From NCBI GenBank assembly GCA_017431785.1, contig JAFRKJ010000091.1:1-60922 (forward strand): DNA of 60,922 nt, read 5' to 3'. Made by a program: the position numbers and the translations under genes. Shown here in pieces: positions 51,080 to 59,040 of this stretch; position 1 is the first letter of the stretch, and every line of letters begins with the position of its first letter. The DNA comes from Bacillota bacterium (GTDB taxonomy: Bacteria > Bacillota > Clostridia > Peptostreptococcales > Anaerovoracaceae). The notes below the pieces were generated by a model, which ran no database searches, was not told where the DNA came from, and worked only from the letters and a program-made list of their open reading frames with translations.

Positions 51080-52426
51080 TTATAAGACCATGGCAGTATG
51101 GGATCCAGTGCAGAGCACATCGCCACGCTTCAGGTTTGATTTGTACTTCTTGAACTGGGCCGGGGTGAGGCTGATGATTTTCAGTGGAGCTTCCTGACCG
51201 GCAGCCTTATACTTGTTGTTGATGAGGGTCACCGCTGACTTAAGGGATTCCGCGTTGACCGCTCTCACTCTGTACTTATACTTCTTCCCATGATAGGAGG
51301 TGTAGAACTGATAGCTCGTGTTGATTCCTGCTGCGCCGATCGCGGTCATGCACAGCGGCGTACAGGAAGTGTCGACCTTTGTCTTGATCTTGGATGGTTT
51401 GAATCCGACTTTGGAAGCCGCGTTGTACAGGCTGTTTCTGGCAGTTACTCCTGCCTGGCTGTTTTTGTAGTTGTCATAACCGATATTGTTATTGGCGCAT
51501 GCGGCCTGAACAAACTGCGCAGCAATCTCGGCCTTTGCAGGATCCGTAAGCCTGATGACGAACTTCCATTTTCTATATTTTTTCGATCCGCTGTATACGT
51601 ATCTGCTGGTTTTAACCTCGTTCCCTCTCTGATCGCCAGCTTTGCCACCGATCGCTTTCCCACGTTCATCCTGGCAGGCTTCGCCGATCTTACCGCTCGG
51701 AGCCTTATAGACTGCGTTGATCTTAATGGTTACCGTCGCGTTTGCCGCGGTATAAACGGATGTCTCGCTAGCCTTTGCGGTGATCTTCACCGTACCATTT
51801 TTATGCTTCAAAGTGACGACTCCGGAAGCGGAAACCGTCGCAAGTTTCGTATTGCTGCTTGTGTAACTCATGCTACCGCTGGGTGCCTTGAGCTTCAGCG
51901 TGAGAGAATTGGTTTTGACCGTTACAGAATAGGTCTTGGTGCCGGAGATCGTCTGCGCACGCTTGTTGACGGTGACGTTAACAGTCTTTGTTGTACTGTA
52001 GTAATCATCCGTTTCCTGCGCTGTGATCGTAATCGTGGACGAACCTTCTACGCCATTCAGATGCACTAGGCCGTTACTTGATACTGTGAGGACCGAGTTA
52101 TTGCTGCTTTTGTATGTGAGCGCTGTCGCTGCTGATGCGTTCAGTAAGAAGTCACCATCATCGACATACTTTGTATAGGATGCCTCACACGAGATGGTCT
52201 GTTTCTGCTTAACGGGAGTTGTTGACGGCTGTTCCGGTTCCGATGGTTCCGGAATCGCTTCCTGTTCAACTTCCTGGATCTCAACCTGGCTTTGCGGATC
52301 GTCTGCTGTGATTTCCACGCCAGCCCCTTCTTCCTGTGACGGAGTATCTGCAAATACGCCTGTTGGATAGATGACGAATGCCATAATGATTGCTATTGCG
52401 ATGCATATGATTCTTTTCTTACTCAT
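51080..52426 (-). CDS. Secreted Big2-type repeat protein with C-terminal cysteine-hydrolase-like domain
   Basis: 448-residue exported protein. It has a signal peptide (about 1-26, cut VFA-DTPS), a Pro/Glu-rich linker (30-75) and two bacterial Ig-like Big2 repeats (about 76-155 and 157-238). A C-terminal domain (245-448) resembles phage-type NlpC/P60-like amidases: AIGGKAGDQRGNEV, then C355 (VDTSCTPLC) and H443 (GSHTAMVL), probably catalytic. It likely acts on the cell wall. AGGAGAG precedes the ATG. It is divergent from the ECF sigma gene. Confidence 0.75.
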   Translation of the reverse strand: MSKKRIICIAIAIIMAFVIYPTGVFADTPSQEEGAGVEITADDPQSQVEIQEVEQEAIPEPSEPEQPSTTPVKQKQTISCEASYTKYVDDGDFLLNASAATALTYKSSNNSVLTVSSNGLVHLNGVEGSSTITITAQETDDYYSTTKTVNVTVNKRAQTISGTKTYSVTVKTNSLTLKLKAPSGSMSYTSSNTKLATVSASGVVTLKHKNGTVKITAKASETSVYTAANATVTIKINAVYKAPSGKIGEACQDERGKAIGGKAGDQRGNEVKTSRYVYSGSKKYRKWKFVIRLTDPAKAEIAAQFVQAACANNNIGYDNYKNSQAGVTARNSLYNAASKVGFKPSKIKTKVDTSCTPLCMTAIGAAGINTSYQFYTSYHGKKYKYRVRAVNAESLKSAVTLINNKYKAAGQEAPLKIISLTPAQFKKYKSNLKRGDVLCTGSHTAMVL

Positions 52427-52474
52427 GATGTTTTCTCTCCTTTTTTCGATCTATCTTTTGTCCCCTTTTGCTCA

Positions 52475-52500
52475 TGTAACACGCAAAAAAGAAGAGTGTT
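52475..52500 (+). promoter_or_regulatory. Possible third copy of the ECF promoter motif
   Basis: TGTAACA then AGTGTT at the same spacing as the two stronger copies (TGTAAC 52475-52480, GTT from 52498). The flanking conserved bases are missing, so this is weaker. It points toward the sigma gene from within the leader of the divergent secreted-protein gene. Confidence 0.35.
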
Positions 52501-52548
52501 GCAGTGAAAACAGGGCTTTTTTGCCGTGAAAAATGTTTTTTAAAATGA

Positions 52549-52600
52549 ACAGAAAAAGTGTGTAACACCAGGCCTCTTGGAGTGTTTTAAAAGATAGGAA
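52549..52600 (+). promoter_or_regulatory. ECF-type promoter of the sigma factor operon
   Basis: TGTAAC at 52561-52566, 17 bp, then GTTTTAAAAG from 52584, with CAGAAAAAGTG directly upstream and TAGGAATCCATA downstream. The same pattern recurs before the gene at 57065. This suggests the sigma factor transcribes its own operon. Confidence 0.7.
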
Positions 52601-52719
52601 TCCATAAACAGTGCATCTGCAAATCCAGGGGTGATATAATTCACAATAGAGTTGATGATGTAACTGTTTGAGAAGAGTATTGGGATAGGGCACCATCTTA
52701 ATCAGGAAGCAATATAAAC

Positions 52720-53214
52720 ATGGATGGAAGGCTTATAGCTGAGCTCTATGATAAATACAGAGAGGAAATACTGCTGTACGTATATTCGCTCTGTCATAGT
52801 ATGGAGGCTGCCGAAGATATCACGCAGGAAGTTTTCGTGAAGGCGATTCTGACGATACCGGAGCATCAGGAAAACCTCAGAGCGTGGCTCTACATGGTAG
52901 CCAGAAACCTGACATATAACCATAGCCGCAAGAACAAGAACAAGGCAAAGGCAGTAGAGAAGCTCAAACATGAATCAGGCGTTGAGGCTGATATCAGCGA
53001 AAAGGTGATTATGAAGGAGCAATACAAAGAACTCTACAATGCCATCGGCAGACTGAATGAGAACTATCGAGAGATATTGATCATGCAGTACTTCGGCAAC
53101 ATGCAGTTGAAAGATGTCGCTGCCGTGTTAGGCATCACACATGGTAATGCCAGGGCCTTGGCCCACAGGGCAAGGAGCAAGCTAAAAGAATTAATGGAGG
53201 AAAACCAGCCATGA
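52720..53214 (+). CDS. ECF-type RNA polymerase sigma factor
   Basis: 164-residue sigma-70-family protein with region 2 (about 1-75; SLCHSMEAAEDITQEVFVKA) and region 4 (about 110-160; LQDVA-like LKDVAAVLGITHGNARALAH) joined by a short linker, the layout of extracytoplasmic-function factors. AGGAAG precedes the ATG. It overlaps the membrane regulator gene by four bases (ATGA), the standard sigma/anti-sigma arrangement. Its promoter motif recurs before a surface-protein gene downstream. Confidence 0.92.
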   Translation: MDGRLIAELYDKYREEILLYVYSLCHSMEAAEDITQEVFVKAILTIPEHQENLRAWLYMVARNLTYNHSRKNKNKAKAVEKLKHESGVEADISEKVIMKEQYKELYNAIGRLNENYREILIMQYFGNMQLKDVAAVLGITHGNARALAHRARSKLKELMEENQP

Positions 53215-54428
53215 CATATCGTGAAAAACTTGAGCTGTACAGCCAGGGGAAGCTCGATGAACAACAGACAAAAGAAATAGAGAGAGAACTGGAAAAGCAG
53301 GAAGCGCTGGCCGACTATCTCTTCGAACACCAGGCGCCGCCGGGAATGGATGATCTGTTCGACGGAACGTCTCCTTTTGGTATCGATAAAGAGCAAGAGG
53401 CATCTGAGGTAAACGAAGAAACAGAAGATGAGTCGGCTGCAATTGCAAAGCAGATTAACAGTTCCATCAGAAGAGCCTTCATCAAAACCGGCGTGATCGC
53501 AACGATAATCGCCGTTATTCTCACCCTGTTTATCGTGTTTGCGCTGCCACATATCGTTTCGGCGTTTTACTATAACCCATCCCAAAGTATAGGCACAGAT
53601 AGTAATGGAGTTAAGGTTGAGCAGTTTGAACGGGATATGAGTGTATATTCAGAAATGTTTATGCCAGAACTGGGACCACAGATAAGCGTCGGTACTGAGA
53701 ATTATGGGTATGGGAATTATAGTTATTATCTCGATGCTCGTTTTGAAGTTGGATCAGATAACGAATACGAAGTAGTGAAACATGTTTATACTGGAAACAT
53801 TAAAAGAAATAGCGTGGTATGCTACAACTATGAAGAATTGGAATCCTTCAACAAACAGGAAAGTTATATTACTGGGGATGCCAATTCAGTATCAAGAGAG
53901 CTGGATAGAATGAACGAGACCGATTTGTATTATGCATACGTAACTCTTGATCGTGATGTGCCATATGAAGAATTTTACGCGGATTATGTAGGAAATGATG
54001 TGTACGGAACAAATGGGAGTTGGGTATGGTGCGGTGTCAGGGTTTCTGACGATGAAAAAATCAATGGCTATTATAATGAAGGATTTTTTGCAACAGCGTG
54101 CCAGAATCGTTCAAGCTGTGAATACGATGTGACTAAATACCCAAATCTGATATGGCAGGAAGGAAGTGAAGATATTGATACCGAGCAAAAGGCAATAACA
54201 CATTTCAAAAGCATGATTCGATATCTTACAGATAATGAGAAGTTTGCAAGTCTTGATAACCATTTGAATATAATGCATGATTTATGGAGTATTGATGAAA
54301 CAGAGAAATACATATCTAATAATGGCATAAATGTTTATGGTTTCATATATGTTTCGAACAAAAAACATATTGTAAATGTATCAAAAGATAACAATATTAT
54401 TCAAGTAGCAGTAAAGAATGCGTTTTAA
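53211..54428 (+). CDS. Membrane-bound anti-sigma factor (sigma factor regulator type)
   Basis: 405-residue single-pass membrane protein. The cytoplasmic part (1-90) starts with YREKLELYSQGKLDEQQTKEI and has an acidic middle. One helix lies at about 93-115 (GVIATIIAVILTLFIVF), and a large extracellular domain (about 118-405) follows. It resembles the Sigma_reg_N/Sigma_reg_C families. It would hold the ECF sigma factor at the membrane until an outside signal arrives. From about base 53,580 the DNA becomes clearly more AT-rich. GGAGG lies before the ATG. Confidence 0.83.
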   Translation: MTYREKLELYSQGKLDEQQTKEIERELEKQEALADYLFEHQAPPGMDDLFDGTSPFGIDKEQEASEVNEETEDESAAIAKQINSSIRRAFIKTGVIATIIAVILTLFIVFALPHIVSAFYYNPSQSIGTDSNGVKVEQFERDMSVYSEMFMPELGPQISVGTENYGYGNYSYYLDARFEVGSDNEYEVVKHVYTGNIKRNSVVCYNYEELESFNKQESYITGDANSVSRELDRMNETDLYYAYVTLDRDVPYEEFYADYVGNDVYGTNGSWVWCGVRVSDDEKINGYYNEGFFATACQNRSSCEYDVTKYPNLIWQEGSEDIDTEQKAITHFKSMIRYLTDNEKFASLDNHLNIMHDLWSIDETEKYISNNGINVYGFIYVSNKKHIVNVSKDNNIIQVAVKNAF

Positions 54429-54440
54429 GCAAGGATTAAT

Positions 54441-56954
54441 ATGATGAAGTCACAAACAATAAAAATAATGAACAACTCACTCATTATAGTCATAATTTCG
54501 GTTTTTTTGGTTGGAGCTAGTTGTTTTGGATATGCATATGGTAAAGGGAACACAACAGATATCACGGCGCCTACAATTGATGCATTGGTTATAAGAAACG
54601 CAGACAATATTGACGCGCAGGGAGAAATGACTATTGAGATAGATATCACAGAAGACGAATCAGGTTTAGGTCAAATATCACTCCAATTTGTGAATGAATT
54701 AGGCCATGTTGCAACAATAAAATATGAAACATTTGATGCCCCATTGTTTTCTGGAAGCTATGTAATAAAAATACCTATTGAGAATCGATTAGCAAACGGA
54801 GAGTATACGTTGACTACCGTTGATGTCATAGACATTAATGAGAATCCTCGCCTTTGTGAGATAGAAGGTGAAACTATTAACGTAGTTAATTCGACACTAG
54901 ATGGAATACCACCTGTGATTAATAGTATTTCCATCCTCAATCCAGAGGAGGTTGATGCAGGGGAAGATTTGGTGATAGACATTGATTTTACAGAAGAAAA
55001 TGGAATTAATGAAATATTGTTGATCTTTGTGCGTAAGGAGGGTCATGGAACAACGATAAGACAACCAATAGATCCACCACTCACTACAGGGAGGTATACA
55101 ATTGCCATCCCCCTTAATAACGAGTTTGAAAACGGCAACTATTCCCTACAGAGCGTTTCAGTTTTTGATGGTAATTCCTACGGACAATTTTTCAACAATT
55201 CTGAAGATGAGTATGTAATCAACGTTATTAATTCAACCGCTGATGCAACATATCCGGTTATTAATAGCATAGAGTTACAAACTCACAGCATTACACTTCC
55301 GGGTGTGTTACATATTAAGGTGGATTTTGAGGAGACTGATAACCCATATTGGATAGGGTTTTCTTTTCGCAATGAGGAGGGACATGAAATAGGCTTCATG
55401 AAGGAGTTGTCCTCTATAGAATCAGGGCAGCACACATTTGATTTTCTAATAAACCCTTTTGAAGAATCGGGTACTTATTCCTTATTATCGGCGGCAATTG
55501 AAGACAAAATGGGTAATCATACGGTTTATTGCCTAAATAAAGAAGATTTTGAAGGCATTTCTGCTCAACATTTTATGGATTTAAGCACGATTTGTGAGAA
55601 TCGGGAATTAATTTTAAAGAGTGCATTTGAAGTGTCGTTCTATAAATCAAGCGGGGCCATTTCATCATTATTAGAAAGCATTAATAATGCAGAGGAGGGT
55701 AGTGTTGGTATTATTGACTGCAGAACAAACACAATCATACCAAAAGAAGTTTTTGAAGCAATTGCTGGGAAAAACATTACTCTAGTTTTTCAGGATGAGG
55801 ATATCCAATGGGTTTTCGAAGGCCTAAAAGTAAAAAAAGAGAAATGTAAAGACATTGATTTGGCGACAAACATACATGGAGAAAACGGCAAGAATCTGGG
55901 ATATGTTGATGATAGTGAAGTCCTGGTAATTGACTTCATGGACAACGGAGAATTACCAGGAGAGGCGACAGTAAGAATCAGCGATGCTTTTATTTCAGCG
56001 AAATATATGGGTGGCACTAAGCACCTGATGTTGTCTTATGTTGATGGAAATTGTATCACTGTTGAAGATACAAACGTAATAATAGAAGAAGATGAAGCAG
56101 CCGTTCTCAAAATAACACATAATTCTAGATATATATTATCAAGTGGGCCGCTTTCGATTGATGATGCAAAGGTGTCTGTTTCAAATTGTATATATAACGG
56201 AGATTGGCTGAATCCATCTGTAACAGTAACACTTAATGGCAAAAAACTGGATTCAAAGTACTACACGAAGAAATATGATAATAATAAGAATGTTGGAACA
56301 GCGACGGTAAAAGTGAGTGGCAGAGAATCTTTCGGCTACAAGGGAGAGGCATCGGGAACATTTCACATCAACCCGAAAAAAGCAGTCATTTCCAAGGTGT
56401 CTGTTGGACAGAAGAAAATCATTGTGGCGATGAGCACAAAACCGTCCGCAACAGGTGGAACAACCTATAAGATCGAGTACAGAGTTGCAGGGCAGGGAAG
56501 TTGGAAGTCAACGACAACAACCAGCAATACAAGGACGATACAAAAGCTGCAAGCGGGAAAGAAATATCAAGTAAGAGTCAAAGCGTATAAGGGCGCAAGA
56601 GTGGGTGCCGTCAGCGCAACTAAGACTTCCGCCAAAGTCCTCAGTCCTCCGAAGGTCAAAAAAGCAAACCCAATAACTGTCACTACAACGACCAAAAAAG
56701 TTAAGGCATCAAAAGTTAAAAAGGCAGCGCAGACGGTAAAAGCAATCACCGTAAGCAAGGCGAAAGGAACGGTAACCTATTCAAAGGTCAGCGGAGCTAA
56801 AAAACTAACAGTCAACAAGAAGACAGGGAAGATAACCGTAAAGAAAAAAACAAAGAAGGGGACTTATAAAATAAAAGTAAAAGTGAAAGCTGCCGGAACA
56901 GCTAATTACGCAGCGAAGACAAAAACTGTCCAAGTAAAGATCAGAGTGAAGTGA
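54441..56954 (+). CDS. Large exported surface protein with Ig-like repeats, FN3 domain and basic tail
   Basis: 837-residue protein with an N-terminal hydrophobic signal/anchor (about 10-30). Three repeats of about 110 residues follow (roughly 35-150, 152-268 and 270-385), each beginning with a PTID/PVINSI strand. A divergent central domain, an MBG-type segment (about 575-640), a fibronectin type III domain (645-735) and a strongly Lys/Thr-rich Ig-like C-terminus come after. No LPXTG anchor is present; the basic end may bind wall polymers. It is 12 bp behind the anti-sigma gene and so within the operon. DNA is AT-rich. Confidence 0.8.
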   Translation: MMKSQTIKIMNNSLIIVIISVFLVGASCFGYAYGKGNTTDITAPTIDALVIRNADNIDAQGEMTIEIDITEDESGLGQISLQFVNELGHVATIKYETFDAPLFSGSYVIKIPIENRLANGEYTLTTVDVIDINENPRLCEIEGETINVVNSTLDGIPPVINSISILNPEEVDAGEDLVIDIDFTEENGINEILLIFVRKEGHGTTIRQPIDPPLTTGRYTIAIPLNNEFENGNYSLQSVSVFDGNSYGQFFNNSEDEYVINVINSTADATYPVINSIELQTHSITLPGVLHIKVDFEETDNPYWIGFSFRNEEGHEIGFMKELSSIESGQHTFDFLINPFEESGTYSLLSAAIEDKMGNHTVYCLNKEDFEGISAQHFMDLSTICENRELILKSAFEVSFYKSSGAISSLLESINNAEEGSVGIIDCRTNTIIPKEVFEAIAGKNITLVFQDEDIQWVFEGLKVKKEKCKDIDLATNIHGENGKNLGYVDDSEVLVIDFMDNGELPGEATVRISDAFISAKYMGGTKHLMLSYVDGNCITVEDTNVIIEEDEAAVLKITHNSRYILSSGPLSIDDAKVSVSNCIYNGDWLNPSVTVTLNGKKLDSKYYTKKYDNNKNVGTATVKVSGRESFGYKGEASGTFHINPKKAVISKVSVGQKKIIVAMSTKPSATGGTTYKIEYRVAGQGSWKSTTTTSNTRTIQKLQAGKKYQVRVKAYKGARVGAVSATKTSAKVLSPPKVKKANPITVTTTTKKVKASKVKKAAQTVKAITVSKAKGTVTYSKVSGAKKLTVNKKTGKITVKKKTKKGTYKIKVKVKAAGTANYAAKTKTVQVKIRVK

Positions 56955-56981
56955 TTGTTAAAAAACTTTTTCTTCATCAAC

Positions 56982-57035
56982 CAGAAAAAATGTGTAACAT
57001 TATTCGATTTGAAGTGTTATAAGAGTAGGACTTCA
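56982..57035 (+). promoter_or_regulatory. ECF-type promoter of the second surface-protein gene
   Basis: CAGAAAAAATGTGTAACATT with TGTAAC at 56995-57000, 17 bp, then GTTATAAGAG from 57018 and TAGGACTTCATAG after it. It aligns base for base with the promoter before the sigma gene from the -35 flank through the -10 and beyond. Confidence 0.7.
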
Positions 57036-57064
57036 TAGAAGGATCAGTTTTACAGGAGGAAAGA

Positions 57065-58930
57065 ATGAAAAGGAACAAATTGTTGAGCTGGATACTGTCA
57101 CTGGTCATGGCGCTTACTGTTTTTTGCATTCCGACAGGTGGAGCTTATGCAGAGGAAAATGAAGAAGATGAATTGGGCCTTTCTGTCAATGTGCAGGATA
57201 GTGAGGTTTTTCTTGAAGATGAGGTAGAATACAGTGCGATTCTGAAGGGTACAGACAAAGCCTTCAGCAAACAAATCACTTTGAAGAAAAAGAACGAAGA
57301 CGGAACCTGGAAACCGTATTGGGGCATATCTAAGTTGATATGGCATAACGCTGACCCTTCTGTTGCCGGTTTATCGCTGCAGGTACCAGGTTATGAGAGT
57401 TATATCACATATGATGAAGAAACAGTGATGTATGATAGTGGATATAATGGGTATGGCACAACGGGTGTCTGTCCTTTCCTCAGGCTTGTTCCAAAGAAAG
57501 CCGGGGATGTGCATTTGAGTGCGGAGATATTCGAAGAGAATGAAGAAGGAGAAGAAAGTGTTGAACCTAAAACTCTTGACCTGACGATTCATATTTCAGA
57601 TGAGGATGTAATACATTACTGTTTTGCAAAATGCGTTTTTCATGAAGACACAGGGGAGATAGAATATATCCCGCTCGGGACAGAAATCAACTATGAAGAA
57701 GAAAGTGAAAATGGCGAACGTGGAGTAGAACTTACTGTTTTTCATGATAGATATGGCAGTTGGCAGATTTTTAAGAATATCACCAAATTAGTTTGGCATA
57801 ACGACAACCCTGAGGTTGCAACTTTAGCCTATGATGGAGATGATGGAAGTATTGAGTCATCTGAGCAAACGGTTATTCCGACAGCTCATGGTGACGGAAC
57901 GATACCTTCGTCAGTAAGAATTCGGCCCCAAAATGGTGGAACTGTAACTCTGAGCGTGGATGTATATGGCGCATATAATCTTGAATGGGATCACGAGTGT
58001 CTTATGGCTACAGTACCTATCAAGATAACGATACCACAAATAGCTGCAGATAGGATTAAATTCAGCGAGTACTTGAATAACGACCGGCGTGGCTACATCA
58101 CCAATGCAGATTATGATACACAGACGGTGATAGGCGAGTTTCGTACAGCGAATGATTACTATGCTGGCGGGTACGATGGTACTGCCTACAAAGTTACCAA
58201 TACTGATATTAAAAACATGGTCGTTACAGTAAAAGTGGGTAATAATACTTATACAACGAAACCATACTATGTCAGTGATCCTGGCGCTTACAGGTACAAA
58301 GTCAAATTTGCAAAAGTTGCTGCCGGAACAGCAGTAACCGTAACTTACAAGATGGGGGCATACAGCAGAACAGAAAAAAATAAAGTGAAGAAAAAAGTGA
58401 CGCCAACGGTCATATACAAGAATCAAGTCTATAACGGTAAGTTCCTCAAGCCAAAAGTCACCGTTAAAGTAGGGAATACGACGTTGAAACAAGGCACAGA
58501 TTACCATCGTGAAGGTGTAGGAAAAAAGAACGTTGGCAAAAACAGCTTTGAACTATTTGCCAATGTCCAGGATTCTCCGAACGGCAAATATAGCTTTTAC
58601 GTAGTGAAAAGCTACAATGTCAATCCTATCGGAACTTCACTCAAGTCGCTGACAAAGGCAAAGAAAGCGATTACAGTCAAGTGGAATAAGCAGGCAACCA
58701 AGATGTCAACTTCAAGAATCACCGGATATCAGATTCAGCTGGCGACCAACAGCGGGTTTACAAAGAACAAAAAGCTGGTAACGGTCAAGGGATATGCAAC
58801 GGTTTCTAAGAAAGTTAAAAAGCTTAAGAGAAAGAAAAGATACTATGTACGAATCAGAACATACAAGATCGTAGGCGGAACGAAATACTACTCCACATGG
58901 TCAAAATCCATGAATGTTAAGACAAAGTAA
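57065..58930 (+). CDS. Exported surface protein with two Ig-like repeats and C-terminal FN3 domain
   Basis: 621-residue secreted protein. The signal peptide (1-29, cut AYA-EENEE) is followed by two long Ig-like repeats (about 34-180 and 185-325) recognisable by ISKLIWHNADPSVA and ITKLVWHNDNPEVA. An MBG-like segment (about 455-520) and a fibronectin type III domain (about 525-620) end the protein; the C-terminus is basic. AGGAGG precedes the ATG. It has its own ECF-type promoter and a terminator after it. No sorting signal is seen. Likely envelope-associated adhesin or wall-binding protein. Confidence 0.82.
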   Translation: MKRNKLLSWILSLVMALTVFCIPTGGAYAEENEEDELGLSVNVQDSEVFLEDEVEYSAILKGTDKAFSKQITLKKKNEDGTWKPYWGISKLIWHNADPSVAGLSLQVPGYESYITYDEETVMYDSGYNGYGTTGVCPFLRLVPKKAGDVHLSAEIFEENEEGEESVEPKTLDLTIHISDEDVIHYCFAKCVFHEDTGEIEYIPLGTEINYEEESENGERGVELTVFHDRYGSWQIFKNITKLVWHNDNPEVATLAYDGDDGSIESSEQTVIPTAHGDGTIPSSVRIRPQNGGTVTLSVDVYGAYNLEWDHECLMATVPIKITIPQIAADRIKFSEYLNNDRRGYITNADYDTQTVIGEFRTANDYYAGGYDGTAYKVTNTDIKNMVVTVKVGNNTYTTKPYYVSDPGAYRYKVKFAKVAAGTAVTVTYKMGAYSRTEKNKVKKKVTPTVIYKNQVYNGKFLKPKVTVKVGNTTLKQGTDYHREGVGKKNVGKNSFELFANVQDSPNGKYSFYVVKSYNVNPIGTSLKSLTKAKKAITVKWNKQATKMSTSRITGYQIQLATNSGFTKNKKLVTVKGYATVSKKVKKLKRKKRYYVRIRTYKIVGGTKYYSTWSKSMNVKTK

Positions 58931-58949
58931 GATGCCATATAGCACGGCA

Positions 58950-58985
58950 AAAGGGCAGTCGCAATAGACTGCCCTTTACCTTTTA
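58950..58985 (+). terminator. Terminator after the surface-protein gene
   Basis: AAAGGGCAGTC (58950-58960) pairs GACTGCCCTTT (58967-58977) around GCAATA, followed by ACCTTTTA. Confidence 0.85.
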
Positions 58986-59040
58986 TGGTATAATTTCCTA
59001 TCAGTTTAAATCATTCCACGAACGTCAAAGGGTGATCGGC

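Follow-up and report, generated by a model that had tools for sequence, protein, structure and literature searches.

Does an extracytoplasmic function (ECF) sigma factor command the genes that surround its own, and from what promoter? This question is raised by a locus on contig JAFRKJ010000091.1 (assembly GCA_017431785.1) of a Bacillota bacterium of the family Anaerovoracaceae, whose 60,922 nucleotides were analysed as one stretch, called the window here. The locus encodes the sigma factor, a putative membrane anti-sigma factor, two downstream proteins that look exported (from open reading frames 3 and 4, ORF3 and ORF4) and, divergently, a protein with immunoglobulin-like (Ig) and endolysin-like (ELLD) domains (Table 1). 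It is very probably a self-contained sigma/anti-sigma switch, with TGTAAC-N16-TGTT promoters for its own operon, for ORF4 and, probably, for the divergent gene. Here, the Sigma_reg_C-type membrane anti-sigma factor would hold the sigma factor until an envelope signal frees it. RNA polymerase with the freed sigma factor would then transcribe the sigma gene, the anti-sigma gene and ORF3 from a TGTAAC-N16-TGTT promoter, giving positive autoregulation. The same sigma factor would drive ORF4 from a second promoter and probably the divergent, wall-enzyme-like gene from a third site, and the cargo may serve to remodel the envelope. That this sigma factor uses the sites is our inference from their presence, from the way in which they recur at homologous sigma genes and are confined to these loci, and from their covariation with sigma region 2.4. 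An earlier note on this DNA had predicted that the sigma/anti-sigma operon is autoregulated and that exported proteins encoded nearby are controlled as well, and at the level of sequence both are supported.

The core motif reads TGTAACA-N13-AGTGTT, which is equivalent to TGTAAC-N16-TGTT, and has exact sites in the window at 52475, 52561 and 56993. The long form has only three exact matches in the whole source genome (2,724,508 bases in 96 contigs, 81% complete), all within one 4.5-kb locus; allowing one mismatch adds one further site. The short form likewise gives three matches at the same three places, and its reversed pattern gives 2 + 3 = 5. With up to two mismatches, the source genome holds 24 + 25 matches versus 11 + 27 for the reversed pattern, which is background level, and with up to three, the window holds 16 versus a shuffle mean of 11.0. 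As the count is not above chance, it is the location of the matches and not their number that is unusual.

The copies before the sigma gene and before ORF4, taken from 52550 and 56982, are identical at 33 of 44 leading bases. Their first blocks are CAGAAAAAGTGTGTAACA and CAGAAAAAATGTGTAACA, their second AGTGTTTTAAAAG and AGTGTTATAAGAG and their third TAGGAATCCATA and TAGGACTTCATA, respectively. The earlier note was right that these two genes share an ECF-type promoter and misjudged its gap, which is 13 bases and not 14: the search that it recommended, TGTAACA-N14-AGTGTT, returns from the window one two-mismatch match at an unrelated place, versus three exact sites for N13. The third copy that it placed at 52475 is present, with the TGTAACA and AGTGTT blocks at the same spacing as an exact N13 match. 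The third block (TAGGA) has no fixed spacing: it begins 14 and 13 bases after the start of AGTGTT at the two sites. Transcription of the sigma operon is expected to start near 52596, 124 nucleotides upstream of the sigma ATG, and that of ORF4 near 57028, 37 nucleotides upstream of its ATG.

The motif was derived from the window sites; the independent evidence comes from homologous loci and from matrices trained on foreign ones. Relatives of the anti-sigma protein were found in 22 of the 296 genomes searched, the source genome among these, and a sigma gene is recognisable at 21 loci from 19 of the 21 foreign genomes (none in G018 and G124). A TGTAAC-like-N16/17-[C/T]GTW pattern precedes the homologous sigma gene at 18 of these 21 loci, or 19 by eye, L047 fitting by eye with one relaxed base. 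The pattern that was run, [TC]GT[AGC]AC-N16/17-[CT]GT[TA].., was composed after inspecting the same sequences; strict TGTAAC stands before the sigma gene at 14 of the 21. Among these promoters, spacers and flanks vary and the boxes are kept. The form met most often beyond the window's family is TGTAACC with CGTTTAT; members of that family have TGTAACA with TGTTATA, TGTTTTA or CGTTATA, and two same-genus loci (G031 and G048) have N17 spacing. The closest locus with complete neighbours, in G065 (same contig as L031), bears the motif before the sigma gene and before a different, small exported-looking protein. The G015 contig ends within the anti-sigma gene.

Two matrices were trained on foreign sites, one on 17 sigma promoters and one on the 4 closest of these, with none contributed by the source genome, and were run over both strands of the window (121,774 positions). 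The 17-site matrix puts 56993+ first (23.6), 52503- second (11.56), 39524- third (11.34) and 52561+ fourth (8.50), and the three best positions for the 4-site matrix are 52503- (25.55), 56993+ (18.8) and 52561+ (13.56). Column-shuffled matrices (500 for each) never placed three of their top four matches in the two intergenic stretches; at least one top-four match fell there in 41 and 29 of them, and at least two in 2 and 1.

That the window sigma factor reads these sites is supported, and not proven, by covariation between residue 67 and the -10 box. Labelled sites are available for 19 sigma factors: all six TGTT sigmas, that of the window included, have Asn at residue 67, whereas the 13 CGTT/CGTA sigmas have Asp in 12 cases and Ser in one. 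Of the columns in which the TGTT group shows no more than two residue types, three separate both groups fully. In the sigma tree (20 rows, among them L172 without a labelled site; the G223 sigma and the second G153 sigma were left out), the CGTT sigma with Ser, from G156, sits in an otherwise TGTT clade with support 86/99, so that the -10 label needs two changes; as few changes were reached in 2 of 500 label shuffles. Residue 67 matches, by the motif DXXR, Asp66 of Tt-RpoE1 of Thermoanaerobacter tengcongensis, which reads the -10 element and has been tied by mutagenesis to -12G (PMC3397946).

Several observations weigh against the proposed circuit. The motif is missing at two of the 21 foreign loci (L053 and L059), and in G048 it lies about 360 bases ahead of the sigma start. 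The wider homologous loci, judged by eye from their ORF lists, have the sigma/anti-sigma pair without such cargo, so that the cargo link rests on the source genome and G065. For ORF3, position is the only argument for control. The unrelated 39524- outscores 52561+ with the 17-site matrix, and 57620- (13.23) comes close behind it with the 4-site matrix. The Asn/Asp pattern stems from only two tree changes, near-copies included, and the base that varies here is -13, whereas Asp66 of Tt-RpoE1 was tied to -12G.

The site at 52475 is near-palindromic, which raises the question of which strand it serves. It is probably an ECF-type promoter of the divergent gene, acting on the minus strand with a start near 52468, 42 nucleotides before the ATG; 48 bases separate the site from the start codon (first base 52426). 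With spacer and flank included, the minus and plus strands score 11.56 and -4.96 by the 17-site matrix and 25.55 and 4.80 by the 4-site matrix. The core boxes alone are ambiguous, and it is spacer, flank and position that favour the minus strand: on core boxes only, the 4-site matrix gives 15.33 on both strands, and the 17-site matrix ranks the plus strand sixth (9.67) with the minus strand outside the ten best. Best placed among the alternatives, and still unlikely, is that the site serves the plus strand and gives the sigma operon a second autoregulated promoter, the divergent ELLD gene then lying outside the regulon. The strict TGTAACA...AGTGTT does lie on the plus strand, and the core-only scores are equal or favour it. 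However, the minus strand scores far higher once spacer and flank count, the divergent gene lies at a fitting distance and has a ribosome-site-like word, AGGAGAG, and a sigma-70-type scan listed no site between 52427 and 52719. Under the preferred minus-strand reading, the earlier guess that the divergent Big2/hydrolase gene might belong to the regulon is strengthened, as the third site probably fires into it.

It is quite improbable that only the sigma operon is regulated, the ORF4 site being a relic or ORF4 being mainly read through from upstream. The site before the sigma gene is the family's recurrent feature and the cargo is lineage-specific, as such a history would have it, but the ORF4 site comes first or second in the window by either matrix, fits a 37-nucleotide leader and has a counterpart in G065, where the exported-looking gene downstream is likewise preceded by such a site. 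Most improbable of all, the repeated blocks would form an operator with inverted repeats, TGTAACAC...GTGTTATA, bound by a dimeric regulator, with no -35/-10 pair: the arms match at 6–7 of 8 positions in the source genome, G065, G015 and G166, but at only 5 of 8 in G156 and G018 and 2–4 of 8 at the remaining 12 tested sites (L047 and two N17 sites were omitted), while -35 and -10 are kept and two same-genus loci have N17 spacing, and a palindromic operator was rejected for this loss of arm symmetry outside the lineage.

How far does the regulon of this switch reach? The earlier note had expected the motif to be enriched genome-wide upstream of secreted repeat proteins, and this was not borne out, as the source genome has only the three local exact sites despite four further regions related to ORF4. 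No exact site lies elsewhere in this genome, which, at its 81% completeness, would let weaker targets or those in missing parts escape. In addition, three other source-genome sigma genes that resemble the window sigma have no TG[ATC]AAC in 220-base stretches reaching 48–63 bases into their frames. Across 8 whole genomes, TGYAAC-N16-YGTTWYA gives 10 matches, nine of them at homologous loci: three at the source locus, two in G065, one each at the sigma loci of G015, G156 and G166 and one in G018, before a shortened anti-sigma gene. The remaining match, in G166, lies 55 bases before a GH3 gene and is taken as chance because it overlaps a hairpin with a T tail. G031 and G048 have no match, as expected from the N17 spacing of their sites. 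With the reversed pattern there are 12 matches, so that place and not number is again the evidence. At the G018 locus (L082:9001-10143, G018:C11), the promoter stands directly before an anti-sigma relative that lacks about 45 residues at its start and has no neighbouring sigma gene.

Order-wide, TGTAAC-N16-CGTTTAT has nine exact matches in 12 genomes, six at the sigma promoter and three elsewhere (one inside a frame, one before an unrelated frame and one in G184), and with up to one mismatch 53 versus 80 for the reversed pattern. An N17 scan of G031 and G048 gives one exact match each, at the sigma gene, and 10 versus 8 with up to one mismatch. Neither scan finds an excess beyond the sigma promoters at the sensitivity used. 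A genome-wide regulon has no support at this sensitivity; the motif marks its own locus only, here and in relatives. As a separate observation, the G184 match (L186, G184:C1:267590) is a family-type promoter followed by what appears by eye to be a degraded sigma gene start; a tblastn search with the window sigma gave no match at this place.

The statement in the earlier note that no described system of this composition was known to it is too strong for the circuit, which is laid out in the standard manner of ECF/anti-sigma loci. The circuit type, an autoregulated ECF/anti-sigma locus, is ordinary and the exported cargo is lineage-specific; this cargo set was not found in the titles or abstract openings of the literature searched. 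YhdL of Bacillus subtilis bears Sigma_reg domains and has its outer domain family in common with the window anti-sigma, and SigM of B. subtilis has a larger regulon than this locus. Like SigM with YhdL/YhdK, the window has an ECF factor and a membrane anti-sigma gene in an operon (PMC11081497). Unlike SigM, the window sigma falls under the cut-offs of the SigM subfamily models (TIGR02950, 96.9 bits versus 147.95; NF007226, 82.7 versus 199). Undecaprenyl phosphate has been proposed as the signal for SigM/YhdLK (PMC11081497) and is a lead only here, because the window sigma does not reach the SigM models.

According to PMC8103513, AAC/CGT promoters, a co-transcribed anti-sigma and positive autoregulation are hallmarks of ECF systems. 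Like ECF/anti-sigma loci generally, as described in that source, this locus has a two-domain sigma, an overlapping anti-sigma gene, an AAC-type -35 and a site before its own gene; unlike them, it has TGTT and not CGT in the -10, and its regulon, which carries Ig/fn3 and ELLD cargo, seems confined strictly to the locus. Tt-RpoE1 is an ECF factor that activates its own gene in vitro, with tGTTAC-N16-CGTC (PMC3397946). The window sites share its 16-base gap, but its anti-sigma as described there, Tt-TolB, is another protein, and it has Asp at DXXR where the window sigma has Asn. In Clostridioides difficile, SigV/RsiV offers a further ECF operon bearing envelope genes, among them that for LbpA, an RsiV relative without the sigma-binding domain (PMC9044953), which resembles the shortened G018 anti-sigma. 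Unlike in SigV/RsiV, RsiV is absent among the matches here, and nothing in the locus points to lysozyme sensing. A start-site paper for C. difficile states that the consensus for its three ECF factors remains to be identified (PMC7438776). For the ECF family in the present order, the analysis provides a testable promoter rule, TGTAAC-N16-[C/T]GTT. It also makes conditional control likely for one wall-enzyme-like protein and for two surface proteins of the Ig/fn3 type, and the Asp/Asn change makes a small test case for a shift in promoter specificity.

As to origin, we suggest only tentatively, and with more doubt than confidence, that an order-wide ECF family, at most loci seen a self-regulating pair whose anti-sigma is of the Sigma_reg_C type, became a cassette that captures exported cargo. 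Each copy's promoter would stand before whichever surface genes adjoin, and a joint shift of the -10 (CGTT to TGTT) and of the residue (Asp to Asn) would have kept the circuit private. Recent horizontal transfer of the cassette is unsupported given the divergence at four-fold sites (identity 0.51–0.64 for sigma and 0.39–0.42 for anti-sigma), despite a G+C of 0.36–0.41 over 53001–59000, versus about 0.46–0.54 elsewhere in the window, and flanking genes that differ by eye among the window, G065 and G015.

Table 1. Predicted features of the sigma/anti-sigma locus (window coordinates)
Feature	Position	Strand	Details
Divergent Big_2 + endolysin-like (ELLD) protein, 448 residues	51080..52426	-	PF25309 106.4 bits (cut-off 27), PF02368 29.1 bits
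Third site, near-palindromic, probable promoter	52475..52503	-	TGCAAC-N16-TGTTACA; matrix rank 2 (17-site), 1 (4-site)
Candidate ECF-type promoter, sigma operon	52561..52589	+	TGTAAC-N16-TGTTTTA; matrix rank 4 (17-site), 3 (4-site)
Extended -10 like word TGATATAAT	52632..52640	+	between ECF site and sigma gene; read directly
ECF sigma factor, 164 residues, regions 2 and 4 only	52720..53214	+	PF04542, PF08281 above cut-off
Putative membrane anti-sigma factor, 405 residues	53211..54428	+	PF13791 (Sigma_reg_C) 57.5 bits, cut-off 25
ORF3, 837 residues	54441..56954	+	N-terminal signal-like stretch (by eye), fn3 and weak Ig-like matches
Candidate ECF-type promoter, ORF4	56993..57021	+	TGTAAC-N16-TGTTATA; matrix rank 1 (17-site), 2 (4-site)
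ORF4, 621 residues	57065..58930	+	signal-like start (by eye); fn3 23.2 bits, under cut-off 25
Terminator-like hairpin after ORF4, 11 pairs	58950..58977	+	10 such sites in region versus shuffle mean 4.6

The sigma factor shows two traits of ECF (group 4) factors, namely regions 2 and 4 only and a co-encoded putative anti-sigma. Its predicted target promoters have AAC in the -35, and TGTT in the -10, where CGTT/CGTA stands for 13 of the 19 sigmas whose site is labelled. The best solved relative by sequence is SigW of B. subtilis (5wuq, E 5.8e-15). The word TGATATAAT is a possible, uncertain basal housekeeping promoter; the promoter scan did not list it. Similar TATGAT words lie upstream of sigma in G065 and G015, and the alignment pairs these two and not the window word. 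A conserved housekeeping promoter upstream of sigma was rejected, as alignment backing for the word came from just two of the three loci.

The anti-sigma gene overlaps the sigma gene by 4 bp, and its product has a single hydrophobic stretch at about residues 93–118 (by eye) and a Sigma_reg_C outer domain. PF13791 is found in all 20 members of the anti-sigma alignment, which was made without the truncated copy L169 and the source-genome helix-turn-helix fusion L087. The window protein does not match Sigma_reg_N (PF13800) at E 0.01; 2 of the 20 members match it. A profile search with this alignment against structures reached E 0.085 at best. The fusion (L087:2257-3603, G000:C58) joins a helix-turn-helix to a Sigma_reg_C domain, so that this outer domain also serves a protein that probably binds DNA. 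At L083:7989-11892 (G156:C7), two DUF5684 genes flank the sigma/anti-sigma pair.

ORF3 begins 12 bp after the anti-sigma gene and is thus probably part of the same operon; G065 encodes a 31% identical relative at the corresponding place. The C-terminal part of ORF4 (about residues 450–621) is found again in many family proteins. The divergent protein has a signal-like start by eye, and its Cys355 and His443 are invariant in all nine aligned ELLD sequences (the alignment was built from 8 of 11 ELLD matches), which suggests a Cys-His wall enzyme.

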